Source: Dialister histaminiformans (GTDB lineage: Bacteria; Bacillota; Negativicutes; Veillonellales; Dialisteraceae). From it: a stretch of 64,000 nucleotides of DNA. The notes under the pieces were generated by a model. The model had not been told where the DNA came from. It searched no databases and saw only the letters and a list, made by a program, of their open reading frames with translations. The translations under genes and the position numbers were made by a program. The stretch lies in contig NZ_FMXA01000003.1 in the NCBI RefSeq assembly GCF_900103425.1, positions 186,001 through 250,000 on the forward strand, read 5' to 3'. Positions 1 to 8,698 of the stretch are shown here, one piece after another. The number at the start of each line of letters is the position of its first letter. The first letter of the stretch is position 1.

Positions 1-206
1 GCCTGAATGAAAGATTTTCCTATAAGGAAGTCTCTGTGCTTTCCCGTAAGCTGGCAAAATGCAGAATTGACATAGCGGATTCTATATATTCTCCCGGACC
101 GGCTGTCTGCCATTTCCACAATGCAGGAGGGTACCTGCAGCAGGTCCATAGCCTCATCTATCCATCCCCCGGTGATTCTCTTATCTATCTTCTTATCTGT
201 ACTCAT
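1..206 (-). CDS. PAS-domain signalling protein, N-terminal part (cut by window edge)
   Basis: Only the first 68 codons lie in the window. The ATG overlaps the stop of the preceding gene as ATGA, and GAGG stands 8 bases upstream of it inside that gene, so translation is probably coupled. Residues 19-68 read like the start of a PAS sensor fold: a hydrophobic strand (LLQVPSCIVEMAD), then RYVNSAFCQLTGKHRDFLIG, the usual 'N..F..LTG....LIG' pattern. It is the third member of a run of PAS/GGDEF/EAL genes, so it may be another c-di-GMP-type protein. The output domain is outside the window and that part is inference. Confidence 0.6.
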   Translation of the reverse strand, partial: MSTDKKIDKRITGGWIDEAMDLLQVPSCIVEMADSRSGRIYRIRYVNSAFCQLTGKHRDFLIGKSFIQ

Positions 207-1690
207 TCCGCGTACCTCGTTTCCAGCAAAGTTTCCAGACCTATCCCCAGATTTTTAATGAGTCCCTTCATTCCGTCGTCACTGAATAAGAGGCATTGTA
301 CTTTCATCTGCACCGTAACTGGATACCCATCGATTTCCTGGATGGCATACACTCCCTGCTGAATCGTCCGTCCAACCTCTTCTGCTTCGGCCCTGCTCTG
401 TACCTGCATGAGCGCAAGGAAGCGTTTCCTTTCCACGCGCCCCAGCACCCCATGAATCCCCAATATTCTGCGAATCCGGTCGCTGATAGCTCGCACCAGT
501 TTCCGTTCGATTTCCACACCATAGGACTGCAGCGTGTTTTCAAGAGAAAGAATCTCGATGTCCATCATAGTAAAATTCTGCTTGTTCCGTGCATACGTTT
601 CATAGTATCGGCTGAGCCTGTCCATGATTCCTATCAGGTTAAGCGCCCCGCTATCAATATCCGAATACAACAACCGGGGAAACAGCTGCTGTCGTTCTGC
701 CTCCTCCTGAAGGTCGGTAAAATAGCCTATCAGTCCCTGAATCTCCCCCTGCCGGTACAGCGGCACCTTCGTGGCCATGATGGCATGTTCTATACCATTC
801 ACTATACAGTGCCCCGGCATGTTGATAACCAGTCTGCCCCGATGAATACAATTTTCTTCGGCTTCCTGGAATCCGTGATCATTCACATGCCATCCCATAT
901 CTTCATCGGTCTTGCCGATCAGATCCCTGCGCTGGATGCCATAATAGTCCAGGAAGGCGCGGCTGGCTCCCAGGAATCTCCGTTCGCTGTCTTTCCAAAA
1001 CAATTTAATCGGGGAAAAACTAAGTACACTTTCCCATATATCCCGGGCCAGCGCATTCTTCTCACTTCCATCCGTCGCCAGATGCAGACTTTCTATAATC
1101 GCTTCGGTAATTTTCCGGTTATCCATACGGGTTTCTGCCGTCGCATATATCAGATGATTCTTTTCTGCCAGCGCAAAGAGAAAATGAATACTCCAGGAAT
1201 AACTGCCATCTGCATTCTTTGTCCTGAACAAATCTTGCAAATATCCACTCTGCTGCAATCGCTCTGACAGACTCTTCCTGTCAATCCATACCGCATAACG
1301 ATCCCAATCCTCCGGATGCACATACTTCCGGTATCTTCCTGCCGTCCAGGCCGAAGGTTTTCCAACACTCCCTAAAGGAACAGAAGTACGGTTTATCAGC
1401 ATATGATTGTAATCCTTCTCCAGATTCCAGAACATGGCTACCCGGTAAAAGGAATTAAGAATCACCGACATGGAATGTTCAGATGCATCCCATTCCCCGA
1501 TTTCCCGATTCAACATCTGAATCCTGCAGGAGTATACCCGCCGCCATCCAGTCTTCCCCAGAAGTTGAACCCTCATACGCAGATAGATATGCCCATAATT
1601 ATATTCCTGTTCATTACTATCCCCTTCTTCATTCACCGAGAACAACAGGTCACGCATTCGTTCCCATTTTATTCCTTCCAGCGAATGCAA
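203..1690 (-). CDS. C-terminal half of a split PAS/GGDEF/EAL protein (PAS plus degenerate GGDEF)
   Basis: This frame continues the preceding 626-residue gene after a frameshift in a G8 run. It aligns by eye along its whole length with the second half of the intact neighbour at 3626-6943. It shares YGHIYLRMR, the HPEDWDRY region, LFRTKNADGSYSWSIH, the PAS-like segment KLFWKDSERRFLGASRAFLDYYG and a terminal degenerate GGDEF (GRVERKRF where GGDEF is expected). The first possible start codon is a TTG with no Shine-Dalgarno, so independent translation is doubtful. The open frame runs upstream to the G tract. It may be made only by slippage or from a cell variant with nine (or six) G. A sequencing error in the run is the alternative. 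Confidence 0.75.
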   Translation of the reverse strand: MHSLEGIKWERMRDLLFSVNEEGDSNEQEYNYGHIYLRMRVQLLGKTGWRRVYSCRIQMLNREIGEWDASEHSMSVILNSFYRVAMFWNLEKDYNHMLINRTSVPLGSVGKPSAWTAGRYRKYVHPEDWDRYAVWIDRKSLSERLQQSGYLQDLFRTKNADGSYSWSIHFLFALAEKNHLIYATAETRMDNRKITEAIIESLHLATDGSEKNALARDIWESVLSFSPIKLFWKDSERRFLGASRAFLDYYGIQRRDLIGKTDEDMGWHVNDHGFQEAEENCIHRGRLVINMPGHCIVNGIEHAIMATKVPLYRQGEIQGLIGYFTDLQEEAERQQLFPRLLYSDIDSGALNLIGIMDRLSRYYETYARNKQNFTMMDIEILSLENTLQSYGVEIERKLVRAISDRIRRILGIHGVLGRVERKRFLALMQVQSRAEAEEVGRTIQQGVYAIQEIDGYPVTVQMKVQCLLFSDDGMKGLIKNLGIGLETLLETRYAE

Positions 1691-3549
1691 AATACGATGC
1701 GCGACTTCTTCCTCAGTGCCCCCCCCAGCATTTTCAAAATGCTCAGATATTCCGGATTAATGTACAGATACCGTACCGATTCTCCATCCGTTTCCACTAC
1801 ACAGAATGGTCCTGGTGTCAGGAAATCTGCCCGCCCTGCCTTTTCATAAAGCCCCTTATCCTTCCGCATCTCTACAGGCAGTTTTCTTTTCTGCATTGCT
1901 TCCAGAATCCGGTCATAAGAATCCGGCCGTGCCAGCACATATCCCTGCACCTTTTCACAGCCTATGCTCTTCAGAAATCTATACTCTTCTTCCGTCTCAA
2001 TTCCTTCTGCCAGCGTATGGGTATGCAGCCGTTTCGCCATAGACACGACAGACTTAACGATTTTTCTTGATTTATCAGAGAAGGTAGAAAAGAAATCCAT
2101 ATCTAGCTTGATTTCATCAAAGTCATAGTCTTTCAGCAGATTCAGCGATGAATACTGACTTCCAAAATCATCCATCCACACCGCATATCCCAGCTGATGA
2201 AATTTTTCAATGGTTTCATATATCACATCCCGGTCATCCATCAGTACAGATTCTGTGATTTCCACATAAAGCATATCTTTGGGCACGCGATACTTTTTCG
2301 CCTGCTCATCGACAAAATCCACCATATCTTCTACCAGTAAATCATAACGAGACAGGTTAAAGGAAACCGGGAGAACCGTCTTCCCCTGATTTATCCGGCT
2401 TTCATATTCCTGGCAGATGCTCTGCACCATATATTTGTCCAGTTTGATAATCTGCTTTGTCTTTTCCAGTACCGGAATAAACTCTGCCGGGCGAAGCATA
2501 CCATGCTGCGGATCAATCCAGCGGGCCAGCGCTTCCATACTACAGATAGAATCAGTGACTGTACGTATCACCGGTTGGTAGAAAACATGAATCCACCCCT
2601 TCTCTACTGCCTCATCAATATGTGCTGCCACATATCGCTCCATGGCCTGCTGCCTCGCCATACGACTGTCATACCAGGCCGTGTCCCGTTCCATATCCCG
2701 ATAAACGCTACGGCAGGCCTCTTCCGCACAGCTCATGCAGACACTGGCCTGAATCTCTCCAGCAGGCACCTCATAAATCCCTGCATCCAGGATAAGATGC
2801 CACTCCGGATGATGTTTCTGAACCATACTGCGTATCCCGGAAATTTCGGTTTCCACATTCTTTTTACTGGTGAGAAGGCAGAAATGATCAACGGAATACC
2901 GTACTACCGGATCCCCGGGGAAAGCATGCACGAGCAGCTCGGCCAGCAGACGAATACAGTCATCTCCTGCCTCCATACCAAATCGTTCATTGAGCAAACG
3001 GAATCCCTCTACATTGAGAAATATAAATACCCGGGGCTCCCGATCCGGCAAATCCTGATCCATTTCCAGAATATCCTGGACCCGTCTTATAAACTGCGTA
3101 TGTCCGGAAAAGCCAGTAAGCCGGTCGATATTAGACCGGGCCAGCTGTTTTTTATACACGCTGGCATATATCAGCTTCCCCAGCCGTTCATCTTCTTCCA
3201 CTCGTCCGAAGATTTCCACTTCCTGAATCTGTCCATCCCGGGAACGGGTACGAAATTCCACATTGCCCACGCCGCCCTGCACCTGCCTGAACTGCTGTAT
3301 CATTTCCATTTCTGCACGCTTTACATCAGCTGGCAAGGCCGCCTTCAGCATCGATGCCCCCAGGAAGTCCATCAGTTCCTTTCCACTGGTGCAACCCCAG
3401 ATCTCTGCGGCCTTGCGGTTCGCATAGAGAATTTCATAGGATTCACTCACCCGATAAATGATAATTCCTCCGGGAAGCCTTTCCAGGTCCTGATGAATTG
3501 GCATCATGCCGGCTTCCTGCTCATCGTCTCCATGCCATTTTTCCTTCAT
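1669..3549 (-). CDS. PAS-GGDEF(degenerate)-EAL c-di-GMP phosphodiesterase-like protein, truncated by frameshift
   Basis: The order is a PAS fold (about residues 15-125), a GGDEF fold with RYSVD in place of the catalytic GGDEF, and an EAL domain (about 310-560). The EAL residues expected for Mg-dependent c-di-GMP hydrolysis are visible: EALAR, NLSRYD, EITES, MDDFGS, IKLD, AEGIET and QGY. GAGGTG precedes the ATG. Compared with the 1105-residue neighbour the protein should continue for about 500 more residues, but after a run of eight G the frame shifts and it ends with 17 unrelated residues. It may still be an active phosphodiesterase lacking the C-terminal PAS/GGDEF sensory half. The gene is 76 bp downstream of its paralogue, probably in one operon. 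Confidence 0.85.
   Translation of the reverse strand: MKEKWHGDDEQEAGMMPIHQDLERLPGGIIIYRVSESYEILYANRKAAEIWGCTSGKELMDFLGASMLKAALPADVKRAEMEMIQQFRQVQGGVGNVEFRTRSRDGQIQEVEIFGRVEEDERLGKLIYASVYKKQLARSNIDRLTGFSGHTQFIRRVQDILEMDQDLPDREPRVFIFLNVEGFRLLNERFGMEAGDDCIRLLAELLVHAFPGDPVVRYSVDHFCLLTSKKNVETEISGIRSMVQKHHPEWHLILDAGIYEVPAGEIQASVCMSCAEEACRSVYRDMERDTAWYDSRMARQQAMERYVAAHIDEAVEKGWIHVFYQPVIRTVTDSICSMEALARWIDPQHGMLRPAEFIPVLEKTKQIIKLDKYMVQSICQEYESRINQGKTVLPVSFNLSRYDLLVEDMVDFVDEQAKKYRVPKDMLYVEITESVLMDDRDVIYETIEKFHQLGYAVWMDDFGSQYSSLNLLKDYDFDEIKLDMDFFSTFSDKSRKIVKSVVSMAKRLHTHTLAEGIETEEEYRFLKSIGCEKVQGYVLARPDSYDRILEAMQKRKLPVEMRKDKGLYEKAGRADFLTPGPFCVVETDGESVRYLYINPEYLSILKMLGGALRKKSRIVFCIRWKE
1719..1726 (-). repeat. 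G8 homopolymer tract at the frameshift point
   Basis: Eight consecutive C on the plus strand are eight G in the coding strand. With eight G the upstream frame reads L-G-G-A-L-R and stops at 1669. With nine (or six) G it would read into T-E-E-E-V-A-H and continue through the 203-1690 frame, restoring a protein like the 1105-residue neighbour. Mononucleotide G runs of this length inside genes are a known substrate for slipped-strand phase variation. Confidence 0.8.
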
Positions 3550-3625
3550 AACTTACACCTCATCTACACTGATATCTGCTACGGGTATGATCACAATCCG
3601 GATGTCTCTGATTTCCAGAGTTATT

Positions 3626-6600
3626 TCACGGCCGTAATGTCTGTTCTGCCCTGTCAGCAGAAAATCGTTTTATTCCTTCCATGATAGCCTGCCACATGAT
3701 TTCCACGCCCTGCTCACTGAAAGGTGCTCCCCGGCATTCTGCCTGTACAGTAATGGATATATTGTCCACCTCATGGATATTCCATACTGCCTCTTTAATC
3801 TTTTCCATCCATTCCGTAATTTCATCCCGTTTACGAAAATGGATAATCGCCAGGAACTGGTCTTCTGACAGCCGGGCCAGCTCCCCATGATTTCCCAGCA
3901 CCTGCTGCAGAGTTCCGGTAATATGCTTCACCACAAGCTGTGTAAACCTTTCCCCATAGGAGGACCAGATTTCATCCATCCCCCGAATGTGAATGTCCGC
4001 CAGTGCAAAATCAACCCCCAGCTGATGATACGACCGGGCAAAACGGTACACCTCTCCGGCCAACCCATTATGATTCATCACTCCGGTCAGCGAGTCCACG
4101 GTAAGCAACCGCTGACGCTGTGCCTCTACCGCCTTCATTTCCTCCTCGCTGAAAAAATAGCCAATCAGCCCGATAACCTCTCCATTGGTGAATACAGGAA
4201 TCTTAGAGGAATAAATATGCCGGGACATGCCACCCACCGTAACCTGCCCCTCTGTATTCATAATAGCTTTTCCTTCCTGCATACACTGGTCTTCATCATC
4301 TATATACAGCCGGCGGTCAATAACCCAGTTTCCAATTTCTTCTTCTTTCTTACCCACAATATCTTTCAAAGACACTCCATAGTAAGTAAGGAAGCTGTGA
4401 CTTGCCCCCAGGAACCGGTGCTCTCTGTCTTTCCAGAAGAATTTGAATGGCATGAAATCCACCAGGGAATCCCATAGTTCTGCCCGGAGCAGTACCGCAT
4501 CTCGTGGATTGGATGCCTGTCCCTTGCTGCTGTTTTCATACATCGCCGCCACCACATCCTGCGAATCAAAGGTAATGGCCGATGTAAGGTAGAGCAGCTG
4601 TCTGTCCGGGTCTGAGAATCTGGCAATAATATGGATTCGCCATGGATAACTTCCATCATCAGCCCGGGTACGGAAAAGCCCGGCCACATACTGTCTTCCC
4701 TGCAGTGCTTTCTTCAGTTTTTCCCGATCAACAAATGCAGCATACCGATCCTGATCCATAGGATGAATCAGCCGGCGATATCCCCTCTGCGTCCATTCTG
4801 ACAGATTGGTCCCTGCCAGCAGTCCCTCGGGTACCCCGGTGTAATTGAAAACAACCTGTATTTTATTCTCCGGCACCGACACAATTGACGCATATCGGAA
4901 AATCTGACTGATATTTCTAGCCACCGCTTCCCCCATCTGCGAATACCGGTTTCCCCTGCTTTTCACCATGGTAAGACTGCAGGCATACAGACGGCGGTCT
5001 TCCCCTTTAAGAACCGATACAACCCGTGCTTCCAGCCGGATATAGATATATCCATGAGCCATATAAGTGACGCCTTCACTGCCTTCCTGTTTCAAGGTCT
5101 GCAGGAAATCAATGGTCTGTCCCCATGGTGCAGATGGTTCTTCCACCCTGAGTTTTCTACCGGTAATTTTACAAAGCTCATCCAGCAGCTTCTTATAGTC
5201 CTGTCGGATATACAGCGGTGTCAGCGTCTGTCCATTAAGTTCGGCAAGAGCCAATGGGGTATCCTGCTGAAAATCCACCTTTATCGCCTTATCTATGAAC
5301 CGGCGGATGCGCCTTGGCTCAATCTGCACGCCCAGTTTCTTTACCTGTTCCAGTGTCGCATCATATGGTGCCGGTTTTCCAATGTAATATCCCTGCGCAC
5401 GTTCACAGCCAATCCGCTTCAGAAACTCAAATTCCTCCGCTGTCTCTACCCCTTCTGCCAGGGTCTGACTGTGGAGCTCCTTGATCATCCGCACCATGGT
5501 CATAACGATGTGCTTCGATTTCTGTGTGAAGGTGGAGAAGAACTTCATATCCAGCTTAATCTTGTCAAAGTCATAATCCTTCAGCAGATTCAACGACGAA
5601 TACCCGCTGCCAAAATCGTCCATCCACACCTGATAGCCCGCTTCATGAAGCCTCCTGACCGCTGATGCAATTACTTCCACTTCGCTGACCATCATCGATT
5701 CCGTGATTTCCACATGAATCATATCTTTGGGCACATGATGCGTCCGCACTTCATCTTCAATAAACGACACAATGTCCCCGGTAAGGAAATCATATCGCGA
5801 CAAATTAAAAGAAACAGGAACTACCTCTTTCCCCTGGCTTACCCGCTTTTCATATTCCCGGCAGACAAGGGATATCATAGCCCGGTCCAGTTTATGAATC
5901 TGCTTCTTTTCTTCCAATATGGGAATGAATTGTCCCGGAACAAGGAACCCGAAATTCGGATCCTCCCAGCGAGCCAGCGCTTCCATGCTGCAGAGTGCCA
6001 TATTGACCGGCCTCACTACCGGCTGATAATATACCTTAATCCATCCCCGGGAAACCGCCTCTTCCAGATGTCCTTCAATATACCGCGCAAAGGCAATCTC
6101 CTTTTCCAGTGCCCTGTCATAATAAGCAATCCGTTTCCCGTTCGTTCCGGTCAGGCTGCGGCAGGCCTGCATAGCGTGACTCATACATACACCTACAGGA
6201 AGTTCCCTGGACGGCATGAGAAACACCCCGATGTTCACCACACATTTCCATTCCGGAGACATCTGCTTTTTCAACAGTTCCCTGTATATTTCCAATGCGT
6301 CATCCATATGTGCGGTTTGCGTAAACACATAAAATGTATCCACCGCATAACGGCATACAATCCCACCGGAAAAAACCCGGGTAAGAATGCCGGCCAGACG
6401 CTTCAGGCAAAGATCGCCCTCCCTGAGTCCAAATCGTTCATTAATCAGTCGGAATCGTTCAATATTAAAGGCCAGAACCGCATATTTCCCTGCCTCAGTA
6501 CCATTTCGGCACAGTGCCTCCACATGGCTGGAGAACTGCATAGGTCCCGGCAATCCGGTCAGCATGTCCACATCGGATTCTTCCGCATTGTGCACCGTTA

Positions 6601-6943
6601 CACAGGCATAAATGAGCCCATCCTGCACCTCTCTCCGTCCGGACATGTGGACAAAGCGCATGGCCCCCTTGCGGGTAAGAATACGGAACGTGATCTGAAA
6701 CTCATTCTTTTCTCCGTCAGACACCTGCGATATATCCTGAAATACCCGATCCATATCTCCCGGATATATACCATGAGAAAGCCCTGCATTCCAGTATGCC
6801 AGAAGCTCCTCTTCATCCTGGCAGTCCCACACCTGTGCTGCCCGTCGGCTGGCAAACAGAATATGATTATAATCTCTGCTATCAAACACCAGAACCCCAA
6901 AGGGAATTTTTTCCAATGCCTGGTTATCTATGTGCGTCCCCAT
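3626..6943 (-). CDS. PAS-GGDEF*-EAL-PAS-PAS-GGDEF* signalling protein, likely c-di-GMP phosphodiesterase
   Basis: The 1105-residue protein has a PAS fold (about 10-120), a degenerate GGDEF domain (about 125-275, RYAVD at 198-202), an EAL domain (about 290-535), two further PAS-like segments (about 690-940) and a second degenerate GGDEF-like domain at the C-terminus (SEDQF). Catalytic EAL residues are all present: E321 of EAL, N380, E412, D442-D443, K463, E498 and Q517. I therefore infer c-di-GMP hydrolysis, with the GGDEF folds as regulatory or GTP-binding modules. No membrane segment is evident, so it is probably cytosolic. Start chosen at the ATG with AAGGAG 6 bases upstream; an ATG 21 bases earlier lacks a site. 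First gene of the cluster. Confidence 0.88.
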   Translation of the reverse strand: MGTHIDNQALEKIPFGVLVFDSRDYNHILFASRRAAQVWDCQDEEELLAYWNAGLSHGIYPGDMDRVFQDISQVSDGEKNEFQITFRILTRKGAMRFVHMSGRREVQDGLIYACVTVHNAEESDVDMLTGLPGPMQFSSHVEALCRNGTEAGKYAVLAFNIERFRLINERFGLREGDLCLKRLAGILTRVFSGGIVCRYAVDTFYVFTQTAHMDDALEIYRELLKKQMSPEWKCVVNIGVFLMPSRELPVGVCMSHAMQACRSLTGTNGKRIAYYDRALEKEIAFARYIEGHLEEAVSRGWIKVYYQPVVRPVNMALCSMEALARWEDPNFGFLVPGQFIPILEEKKQIHKLDRAMISLVCREYEKRVSQGKEVVPVSFNLSRYDFLTGDIVSFIEDEVRTHHVPKDMIHVEITESMMVSEVEVIASAVRRLHEAGYQVWMDDFGSGYSSLNLLKDYDFDKIKLDMKFFSTFTQKSKHIVMTMVRMIKELHSQTLAEGVETAEEFEFLKRIGCERAQGYYIGKPAPYDATLEQVKKLGVQIEPRRIRRFIDKAIKVDFQQDTPLALAELNGQTLTPLYIRQDYKKLLDELCKITGRKLRVEEPSAPWGQTIDFLQTLKQEGSEGVTYMAHGYIYIRLEARVVSVLKGEDRRLYACSLTMVKSRGNRYSQMGEAVARNISQIFRYASIVSVPENKIQVVFNYTGVPEGLLAGTNLSEWTQRGYRRLIHPMDQDRYAAFVDREKLKKALQGRQYVAGLFRTRADDGSYPWRIHIIARFSDPDRQLLYLTSAITFDSQDVVAAMYENSSKGQASNPRDAVLLRAELWDSLVDFMPFKFFWKDREHRFLGASHSFLTYYGVSLKDIVGKKEEEIGNWVIDRRLYIDDEDQCMQEGKAIMNTEGQVTVGGMSRHIYSSKIPVFTNGEVIGLIGYFFSEEEMKAVEAQRQRLLTVDSLTGVMNHNGLAGEVYRFARSYHQLGVDFALADIHIRGMDEIWSSYGERFTQLVVKHITGTLQQVLGNHGELARLSEDQFLAIIHFRKRDEITEWMEKIKEAVWNIHEVDNISITVQAECRGAPFSEQGVEIMWQAIMEGIKRFSADRAEQTLRP

Positions 6944-7173
6944 GCAGAACTCCTTCCTGCCCATCTGATTTATTTTTATACCAGATAGTGTCTCTTTTAA
7001 GGAAGAAGCACCATCTGCTGCTAGTTTCCACGTCCGATTCGTACTCTGACTGCTCTGATTTCACAAATGTAAACTTTATCGATTTTATTGTATGCCCCTA
7101 CCGCTCTGCACGTCAAGAAATCCCCTGCCCCTTTCCCCTGACCTGAGCCGAGATAGTATAAAGTGGATAAGTA

Positions 7174-7202
7174 TTGTGTACATTGCCATATTCCCTTATA
7201 CT
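7174..7202 (+). promoter_or_regulatory. Predicted sigma-70 promoter for the DUF438 gene
   Basis: TTGTGT (7174-7179) and TATACT (7197-7202) are separated by 17 bases, 48 bases before the start codon and with AAAGGA in between. It lies in the divergent intergenic region between the signalling cluster and the DUF438 gene. Confidence 0.6.
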
Positions 7203-7249
7203 AAAAGGGAGATATTTCCATCATATTCATATAAGAAAAGGATAAATCT

Positions 7250-8698
7250 ATGGATAAAATTGTAGATCTGAATAAAACCGTATATGACCTGGTTCAGGAA
7301 TTCCCGGAAGTAAAAGATGTACTGGCTTCCCTTGGTTTTTCAAAAATCACCAGCCCGATGGCTCTCAAGGTTATGGGCCGCGTCATGACCATCCCCAAGG
7401 GTGCTGCCATGATGGGTATTCCCATGGAAACCATCATCAGAGCCTTTGCTTCCCGCGGTCTTACCGTAAAAGATGCGCCACCTGCCACAGAGTCAGAACA
7501 GCAGGCGGAAATACAGAGCCATGCAGAAAAAATCAAACAGCTTCTCAAACGGCTCGGTGCCGGTGAAGATTTTGAATCGGTGCGAAAAGACTTTGTCACA
7601 GACTTCGGCCAGGTATCCGCTCACGACATCATGAAAGCCGAACAGAGCCTTATCGCCGAAGGAGAAGATCCAGCCCGTATCCGCAAGCTCTGCGACCTTC
7701 ACTCCACCTTATTCCACGGCCGCACAGAAATGGAAATCCTGTCTGAAGAAAAAAGAAAGCAGAAAGCCGGGCTGTCCCAGATTCCATCCGGTCATCCGGT
7801 AGACTATTTCTTCCATGAAAATACAGCACTGACCAAAGAGCTGGACCTCCTGTCTGTCCTTCTGTTCAAAGGCGACAAAGTGCGTATCATAGAATCTCTG
7901 AAAACACTGAAAAAAGTGCGTGTTCTCTACAGTAAAAAAGAGGAGCTTCTCATGACGGTACTGGTGCGTTACGGCGTAACCGGCCCCTCGGAAGTCATGT
8001 GGGGTGTAGATGATGAAATCCGCATGGACCTTTCCCGCATTCTCCACCGACTGACAAGAGAAGAGGTATCTGCTCTCAAAGAGACCATAAAGGCAGTAAT
8101 TACCCGGATGAAAGAAATGATTTACAAGGAAGAACATATCCTCTTTCCACTCTGCCTGTCCCATTTTACCGATGAAGAATGGGTGGATGTATACCGGGAT
8201 CTCCATGAAATGGGGCCTGCCTTTATTCAGGAAATACCCAGCTGGCCACACGGGGACGAAGTACTTTCCCGCCGGAAGGCTTCCCAGAATGAAACAGAAG
8301 CTATTCAGGACGGAACCCTGTCATTCTCCGGCGATGGCGTAAAAAGCCCGGCCGGGACCCTGACCATGGCGCAGATGAAATCCATACTTTCTCTGCTTCC
8401 CCTGGATATTACAGTTATCGATGAACAGGAAATCAACCGATTCTATAAGAATACCGACCGGGTATTCTCCCGTCCTCTGTCTACCCTGAACCGCCCCACC
8501 TATGACTGTCATCCGCCATATATCAAGCCCATGGTGGAACGCATGATCCGTCAGTTTAAAGAAGGATCCAGCGACAAGCAGGTCCGTACCTTCCCCAAAG
8601 ACGGCAAAATGGTCACTGTAACCTATGCCGCCATGCGGGATGAAAAAGGCAACTATCTTGGAACCGTGGAGTTCATTCAGGAAAGCGAGCAAAAATGA
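7250..8698 (+). CDS. DUF1858-DUF438-hemerythrin-like-PAS protein
   Basis: The 482-residue cytosolic protein has the layout of the DUF438 family found in anaerobes. It has an N-terminal DUF1858 module (residues 1-70, beginning MDKIVDLNKTVYDLV), a DUF438 helical region (about 90-160), a hemerythrin-like HHE bundle (about 175-330; HPVDYFFHEN and EEHILFPL carry candidate iron ligands) and a C-terminal PAS fold (about 375-480). Family members are thought to sense oxygen, NO or redox state, but no exact reaction is established, so a redox-sensing role is inference. Single gene with its own promoter and a strong terminator 130 bp downstream. It is divergent from the c-di-GMP-type cluster. Confidence 0.85.
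   Translation: MDKIVDLNKTVYDLVQEFPEVKDVLASLGFSKITSPMALKVMGRVMTIPKGAAMMGIPMETIIRAFASRGLTVKDAPPATESEQQAEIQSHAEKIKQLLKRLGAGEDFESVRKDFVTDFGQVSAHDIMKAEQSLIAEGEDPARIRKLCDLHSTLFHGRTEMEILSEEKRKQKAGLSQIPSGHPVDYFFHENTALTKELDLLSVLLFKGDKVRIIESLKTLKKVRVLYSKKEELLMTVLVRYGVTGPSEVMWGVDDEIRMDLSRILHRLTREEVSALKETIKAVITRMKEMIYKEEHILFPLCLSHFTDEEWVDVYRDLHEMGPAFIQEIPSWPHGDEVLSRRKASQNETEAIQDGTLSFSGDGVKSPAGTLTMAQMKSILSLLPLDITVIDEQEINRFYKNTDRVFSRPLSTLNRPTYDCHPPYIKPMVERMIRQFKEGSSDKQVRTFPKDGKMVTVTYAAMRDEKGNYLGTVEFIQESEQK

Follow-up and report, generated by a model that had tools for sequence, protein, structure and literature searches.

A G8 tract coincides with the frame break in a c-di-GMP phosphodiesterase gene of Dialister histaminiformans, a candidate poly-G contingency locus

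Phase-variable second-messenger enzymes form a small class of recent date, known so far to switch by promoter inversion or by epigenetic means. In C. difficile, the c-di-GMP phosphodiesterases pdcB and pdcC are phase variable by promoter inversion (PMC9286219; reviewed in PMC11868660). In E. coli, a phosphodiesterase gene lies in the sfa operon, whose phase variation is epigenetic (cited in PMC11868660). Gene switching by tracts of eight or more G is documented in C. jejuni, and tracts near the cut-off may mutate at rates below 1e-5 (PMC6321876). Poly-G tracts late in reading frames of H. canadensis have been proposed to switch C-termini (PMC2823697). No example of repeat-based (poly-G) phase variation in GGDEF or EAL genes was found in the open-access literature.

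Here, we describe a split c-di-GMP phosphodiesterase gene in a 64-kb stretch of Dialister histaminiformans DNA (referred to as the window), in which a run of eight G coincides with a break in the reading frame. If this tract switches, the locus would resemble pdcB and pdcC in that a c-di-GMP phosphodiesterase varies stochastically and heritably, giving rise to mixed populations. However, the invertible promoters of pdcB and pdcC turn the whole gene on or off, whereas a coding poly-G tract would here change the C-terminal half of the protein. As in H. canadensis, a poly-G tract late in the frame would alter the C-terminus without preventing synthesis of the N-terminal part. The H. canadensis tracts are G10 or more, show read-level variation, and affect other protein targets, whereas the present tract is G8 and would entail the loss of about 490 residues. 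The locus shares with C. jejuni a tract of at least 7 or 8 G within a frame that would be switched by one base, but C. jejuni has many G9-G10 tracts, above chance, whereas this genome has five G8 runs in total and avoids long G/C runs in genes. The likeness to sfa lies in the tie between phase variation and c-di-GMP breakdown, although sfa switching is epigenetic rather than repeat based. An invertible promoter was considered for the present locus and rejected, as there are no inverted repeats of at least 10 nt at 3500-3700 or 6900-7300, near either gene start. Promoter-like sites across positions 1-7300 are no more frequent than in shuffled sequences.

The tract reads as C8 on the plus strand and as G8 on the minus strand, which is the gene strand, and it lies exactly where a preliminary description of this DNA had placed it (Table 1). 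The 626-residue PAS-GGDEF-EAL frame named in that description was also recovered, with its stop 16 codons past the tract. The second frame is open from stop to stop between 1756 and 203, a span of 517 codons. We re-translated the region with the tract length alone varied from five to eleven G. Nine or six G, the two lengths that had been suggested to join the frames, did so, yielding proteins of 1,115 and 1,114 aa, respectively; with 5, 7, 8, 10, or 11 G, translation terminated no more than 16 codons past the tract. A one-step change from eight to nine G switches between two frames, one of which encodes the full protein. The tract also has the form known for poly-G phase-variable genes, a G/C homopolymer of at least 7 to 8 within an open frame.

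Table 1. Features of the split gene and its surroundings (window positions) and poly-G loci elsewhere in the genome and family
Feature	Position	Strand	Details
G8 homopolymer	1719..1726	-	Upstream-frame codons CTG GGG GGG GCA
First half of split gene: PAS, degenerate GGDEF (SVDHF), complete EAL	1669..3549	-	626 aa; stop UAA 1671-1669
Second half of split gene: PAS_4 and degenerate GGDEF	203..1718	-	~504 codons after tract; without a normal start
Intact paralog, PAS-GGDEF-EAL-PAS-GGDEF	3626..6964	-	1112 aa; 76 nt upstream of split gene
Next gene, start of PAS-GAF-GGDEF protein (457 aa)	1..206	-	ATG 206-204; extends beyond window
Promoter-spacer G8, same genome	L030:7843-7850 = C25:23842-23849		In 16-bp spacer between perfect TTGACA and perfect TATAAT, before autotransporter (PF03797)
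Glycosyltransferase copy 1, G009	L089:3080-3089		G10, stopped at TAG
Glycosyltransferase copy 2, G009	L097:1523-1530		G8, open
Type III restriction-modification methyltransferase, G005	L100:1494-1502		G9; splits the gene (PF12564 before, PF01555 after)
G8 tracts soon after signal peptides, G003 and G004	L103:1532-1539, L106:1478-1485 (G003); L131:1501-1508 (G004)		TonB receptor and two surface-type proteins
Promoter-spacer G8, G003	L108:1536-1543		Before YadA-type adhesin
Promoter-spacer G9, G003	L105:1550-1558		Before autotransporter

An intact paralog lies immediately upstream and likely belongs to the same operon as the split gene. It encodes 1,112 aa rather than the 1,105 residues first given. 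By BLASTP, the first half of the split gene aligns with residues 14-607 of this neighbor (42% identity) and the second half with residues 614-1088 (32% identity), such that the two frames together match the intact protein, as had been claimed, and meet at the tract. The codon-usage score indicates a frame change between 1719 and 1689. Taken together, the codon-usage change and the homology junction place the break at the tract or a few codons after it.

Decay of the downstream frame, which had been put forward as an observation that would speak against a switch, was looked for and not found. Approximately 500 codons are open, and their conservation is like that of the intact copy. When compared with an independent third paralog (contig C40), the second half shows 23.9% identity for the split gene and 24.5% for the intact neighbor, and the EAL half shows 48.4% and 47.1%, respectively. 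This relative-rate comparison, a test of modest power with three sequences, suggests that both reading states are under selection. At the 3' end of the second half, the stop codon TGA (205-203) and the start codon of the next gene share bases in an ATGA overlap.

The EAL domain of the first half is complete (profile positions 4-236 of 236). In an alignment with solved EAL enzymes, the catalytic E, N, E, DD, K, E, and Q residues are all present, and the EAL, NLS, TES, DDFG, IKLD, EGIE, and VQGY motifs align with 4rnh. On the basis of these conserved residues, the first half is predicted to be an EAL c-di-GMP phosphodiesterase. The GG(D/E)EF motif is intact in neither half, reading SVDHF in the first and VERKRF at the corresponding place in the second, and neither GGDEF domain is predicted to be an active diguanylate cyclase. 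The domain profiles of both halves bear out the earlier view that the short form has the EAL domain and lacks the C-terminal PAS/GGDEF module, which is likely a regulatory or sensory part. Some homologs stop short of the last PAS-GGDEF of the neighbor (875 aa in G011 and 828 aa on contig C30); none of the homologs compared ends at the same point as the 626-aa form. About ten further EAL/GGDEF genes are found elsewhere in the genome, and 24 GGDEF matches were obtained across its 1.7 Mb. A search for PilZ effectors gave no match in the whole genome, so this large c-di-GMP complement lacks a common family of effectors, and we propose no output pathway. The "mixed surface or biofilm states" of the preliminary description may be a consequence of switching.

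The 457-aa protein encoded by the next gene has an intact RSGGDEF motif (PF00990, 81 bits) and is predicted to be an active diguanylate cyclase. Because the gene has a GAGG ribosome site of its own, translational coupling to the second half is probable but not certain. Given the ATGA overlap, the break may also uncouple this cyclase gene and be polar on it, a point absent from the preliminary description.

G/C runs of at least 6 are strongly avoided in the coding sequence of the window, with 2 seen compared with 14.4 expected from synonymous shuffling. Runs of four G/C are slightly overrepresented. Synonymous shuffling of the window's genes gives 0.84 G/C runs of at least eight per window, and enrichment of G8 over chance was dropped as an argument since the shuffles yield approximately one. 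Pattern searches of the whole 1.7-Mb genome returned nine G7 runs and five G8 runs, none longer; four of the five G8 runs lie outside ORFs, leaving the tract in the split gene as the only run of at least eight G in coding sequence. Homology confines the frame break to ~70 nt, and this sole coding G8 falls inside. By our estimate, such a coincidence would arise by chance at ~70 in 1.5 million, or about 5e-5, and is thus very unlikely. Because a run alone is expected about once per window, the useful evidence is the avoidance of G runs together with the exact coincidence with the break. Moreover, given this avoidance of long G/C runs, a G8 tract retained in a gene needs a reason.

Poly-G tracts also occur elsewhere in this genome. 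The G8 between perfect -35 (TTGACA) and -10 (TATAAT) hexamers, upstream of an autotransporter gene, is a strong candidate for promoter-type phase variation. Near L030:9033-9035, an in-frame TGA also interrupts this autotransporter gene. Among the nine G7 tracts, two lie 7-8 nt upstream of the start codons of EAL genes (L075:5142-5148 on C40 and L076:5849-5855 on C35), where they occupy the position of the ribosome-binding site, and a change in their length could tune translation. A further G8 lies in the degenerate last repeat of a CRISPR array (L017:1501-1508 = C30:41093-41100), shortly before an ORF that we take to be cas1-like.

We then consider the family, where G8 runs were present in all 12 of the genomes searched and several genomes had G9-G13. 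Some of the longest G runs, which lie at contig ends (G006 and G008), were excluded as possible sequencing artifacts, and weak split cases (L109, L122, L126, and L091) were excluded as G+C-rich intergenic repeats or for unconvincing frames. G009, a single-contig genome, carries two copies of a glycosyltransferase family 2 gene that are identical over ~1.4 kb and differ only in the tract; one copy looks to be off and the other on. This was the only tract-length difference observed, and it concerns a gene other than the phosphodiesterase. The split methyltransferase of G005 is a possible phasevarion. G003 has a G8 just downstream of the signal-peptide sequence of a TonB receptor and a second G8 in a gene for a surface-type protein, and in G004, one follows a signal peptide; at these loci, the frames are open on both sides of the tract and out of register. 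Two further tracts of G003 lie in promoter spacers, the G8 within TTGACA-18-TATTAT before the adhesin gene (YadA-head ESPR) and the G9 within TTGTTA-19-TATAAT. Because the tracts of the family sit in classic targets of poly-G phase variation, G8 is likely long enough to matter in this family.

The best reading of the split gene is a slipped-strand contingency locus that changes the C-terminal module of a c-di-GMP phosphodiesterase, and we place its probability at roughly 0.58. We favor it because the tract and the frame break coincide and because the second half shows no decay and keeps its ATGA overlap; the poly-G switch signatures elsewhere in the family and in the same genome raise the plausibility of switching. 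During replication, slipped-strand mispairing at the tract would reversibly gain or lose one G. With eight G, as in this assembly, the product would be the 626-aa phosphodiesterase (PAS, degenerate GGDEF, and complete EAL), which ends in a 16-residue out-of-frame tail. A frame-restoring length, with nine G being one step away, would instead yield an enzyme of ~1,115 aa with the C-terminal PAS/degenerate-GGDEF module, and enzyme activity may differ between the two forms. In the eight-G state, ribosomes would leave the message about 1.46 kb before the start of the 457-aa gene, and translation of the diguanylate cyclase would be weakened by the lost coupling and possibly by polarity over poorly translated message. 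The switch would in this way alter both the control of c-di-GMP breakdown and c-di-GMP supply.

Several points weigh against a switch. Eight G is near the lower limit of the lengths that switch efficiently, and all five G8 runs of the genome are exactly eight, giving no sign of the longer tracts of its relatives. Those relatives in which switch-like tracts occur are members of other genera, and a single genome is behind the locus. The classic poly-G targets in Campylobacter and Neisseria are surface genes and not signaling enzymes, which we also count against a switch. A scan of genome contigs found no close ortholog or other isolate, with relatives at no more than 46% identity; the split gene is absent from the one other genome of the genus searched, and the viral contigs scanned gave no match.

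The frame break could also be a real but non-adaptive frameshift recently fixed in this strain, with the tract an ordinary mutation hotspot and the gene being lost or shortened. Any G8 or G9 tract is prone to mutation, the locus is known from a single genome, and the selection against long G runs in the genes of that genome is as expected if such runs are merely harmful. The intact adjacent paralog and about ten more EAL/GGDEF genes could cover the loss. However, the second half has not decayed, and the tracts of the family lie in classic phase-variable gene classes and include otherwise identical copies of unequal tract length; we regard a fixed frameshift as unlikely. Somewhat less likely again is a miscounted homopolymer, with nine G in the true sequence and an unbroken gene. 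Homopolymers of at least 8 are the commonest place of assembly errors, and this is a draft assembly of 40 contigs, but 10 of 10 control genes in the window align to their families with no break, indicating that the assembly is not generally indel-prone. A G9 tract would, in any event, still be the longest G run of the genome and a candidate switch.

Alternatively, programmed -1 ribosomal frameshifting or transcriptional slippage at the G tract could yield both forms from a single DNA sequence. The shift needed is -1, G GGG GGG formally qualifies as a slippery heptamer, and the 79 nt that follow are predicted to fold slightly more stably than shuffled sequences (-21.6 kcal/mol, z -1.88). Given that this z-score is modest, that no ortholog was found to show conservation of the site, and that poly-G tracts of the family behave as DNA repeats of variable length, we consider this explanation highly improbable. 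We see hardly any prospect that the halves are two separate genes, with the second translated alone after a restart at ATG 1657. This ATG follows the UAA by 12 nt and is preceded by GGAAGGAA at a distance of about 14 nt, and low-level restart there is possible; however, a well-placed start is absent, homology spans the break, and the paralog is a single protein.

Slipped-strand switching at the G8 tract may have a wider reach, which we advance only tentatively. A one-base poly-G switch could set c-di-GMP turnover across the operon, by removing the regulatory half of the phosphodiesterase and uncoupling the cyclase, and be part of a family-wide poly-G phasome. If true, that phasome would also cover autotransporters, a TonB receptor, a glycosyltransferase, and a type III DNA methyltransferase. 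The family survey points to a testable phasome, of which we found no prior report, in diderm, apparently anaerobic bacteria. At the locus itself, repeat-based trimming of a phosphodiesterase regulatory module beside an overlapping cyclase would, if true, give a population a simple genetic means of spreading across different c-di-GMP set points.
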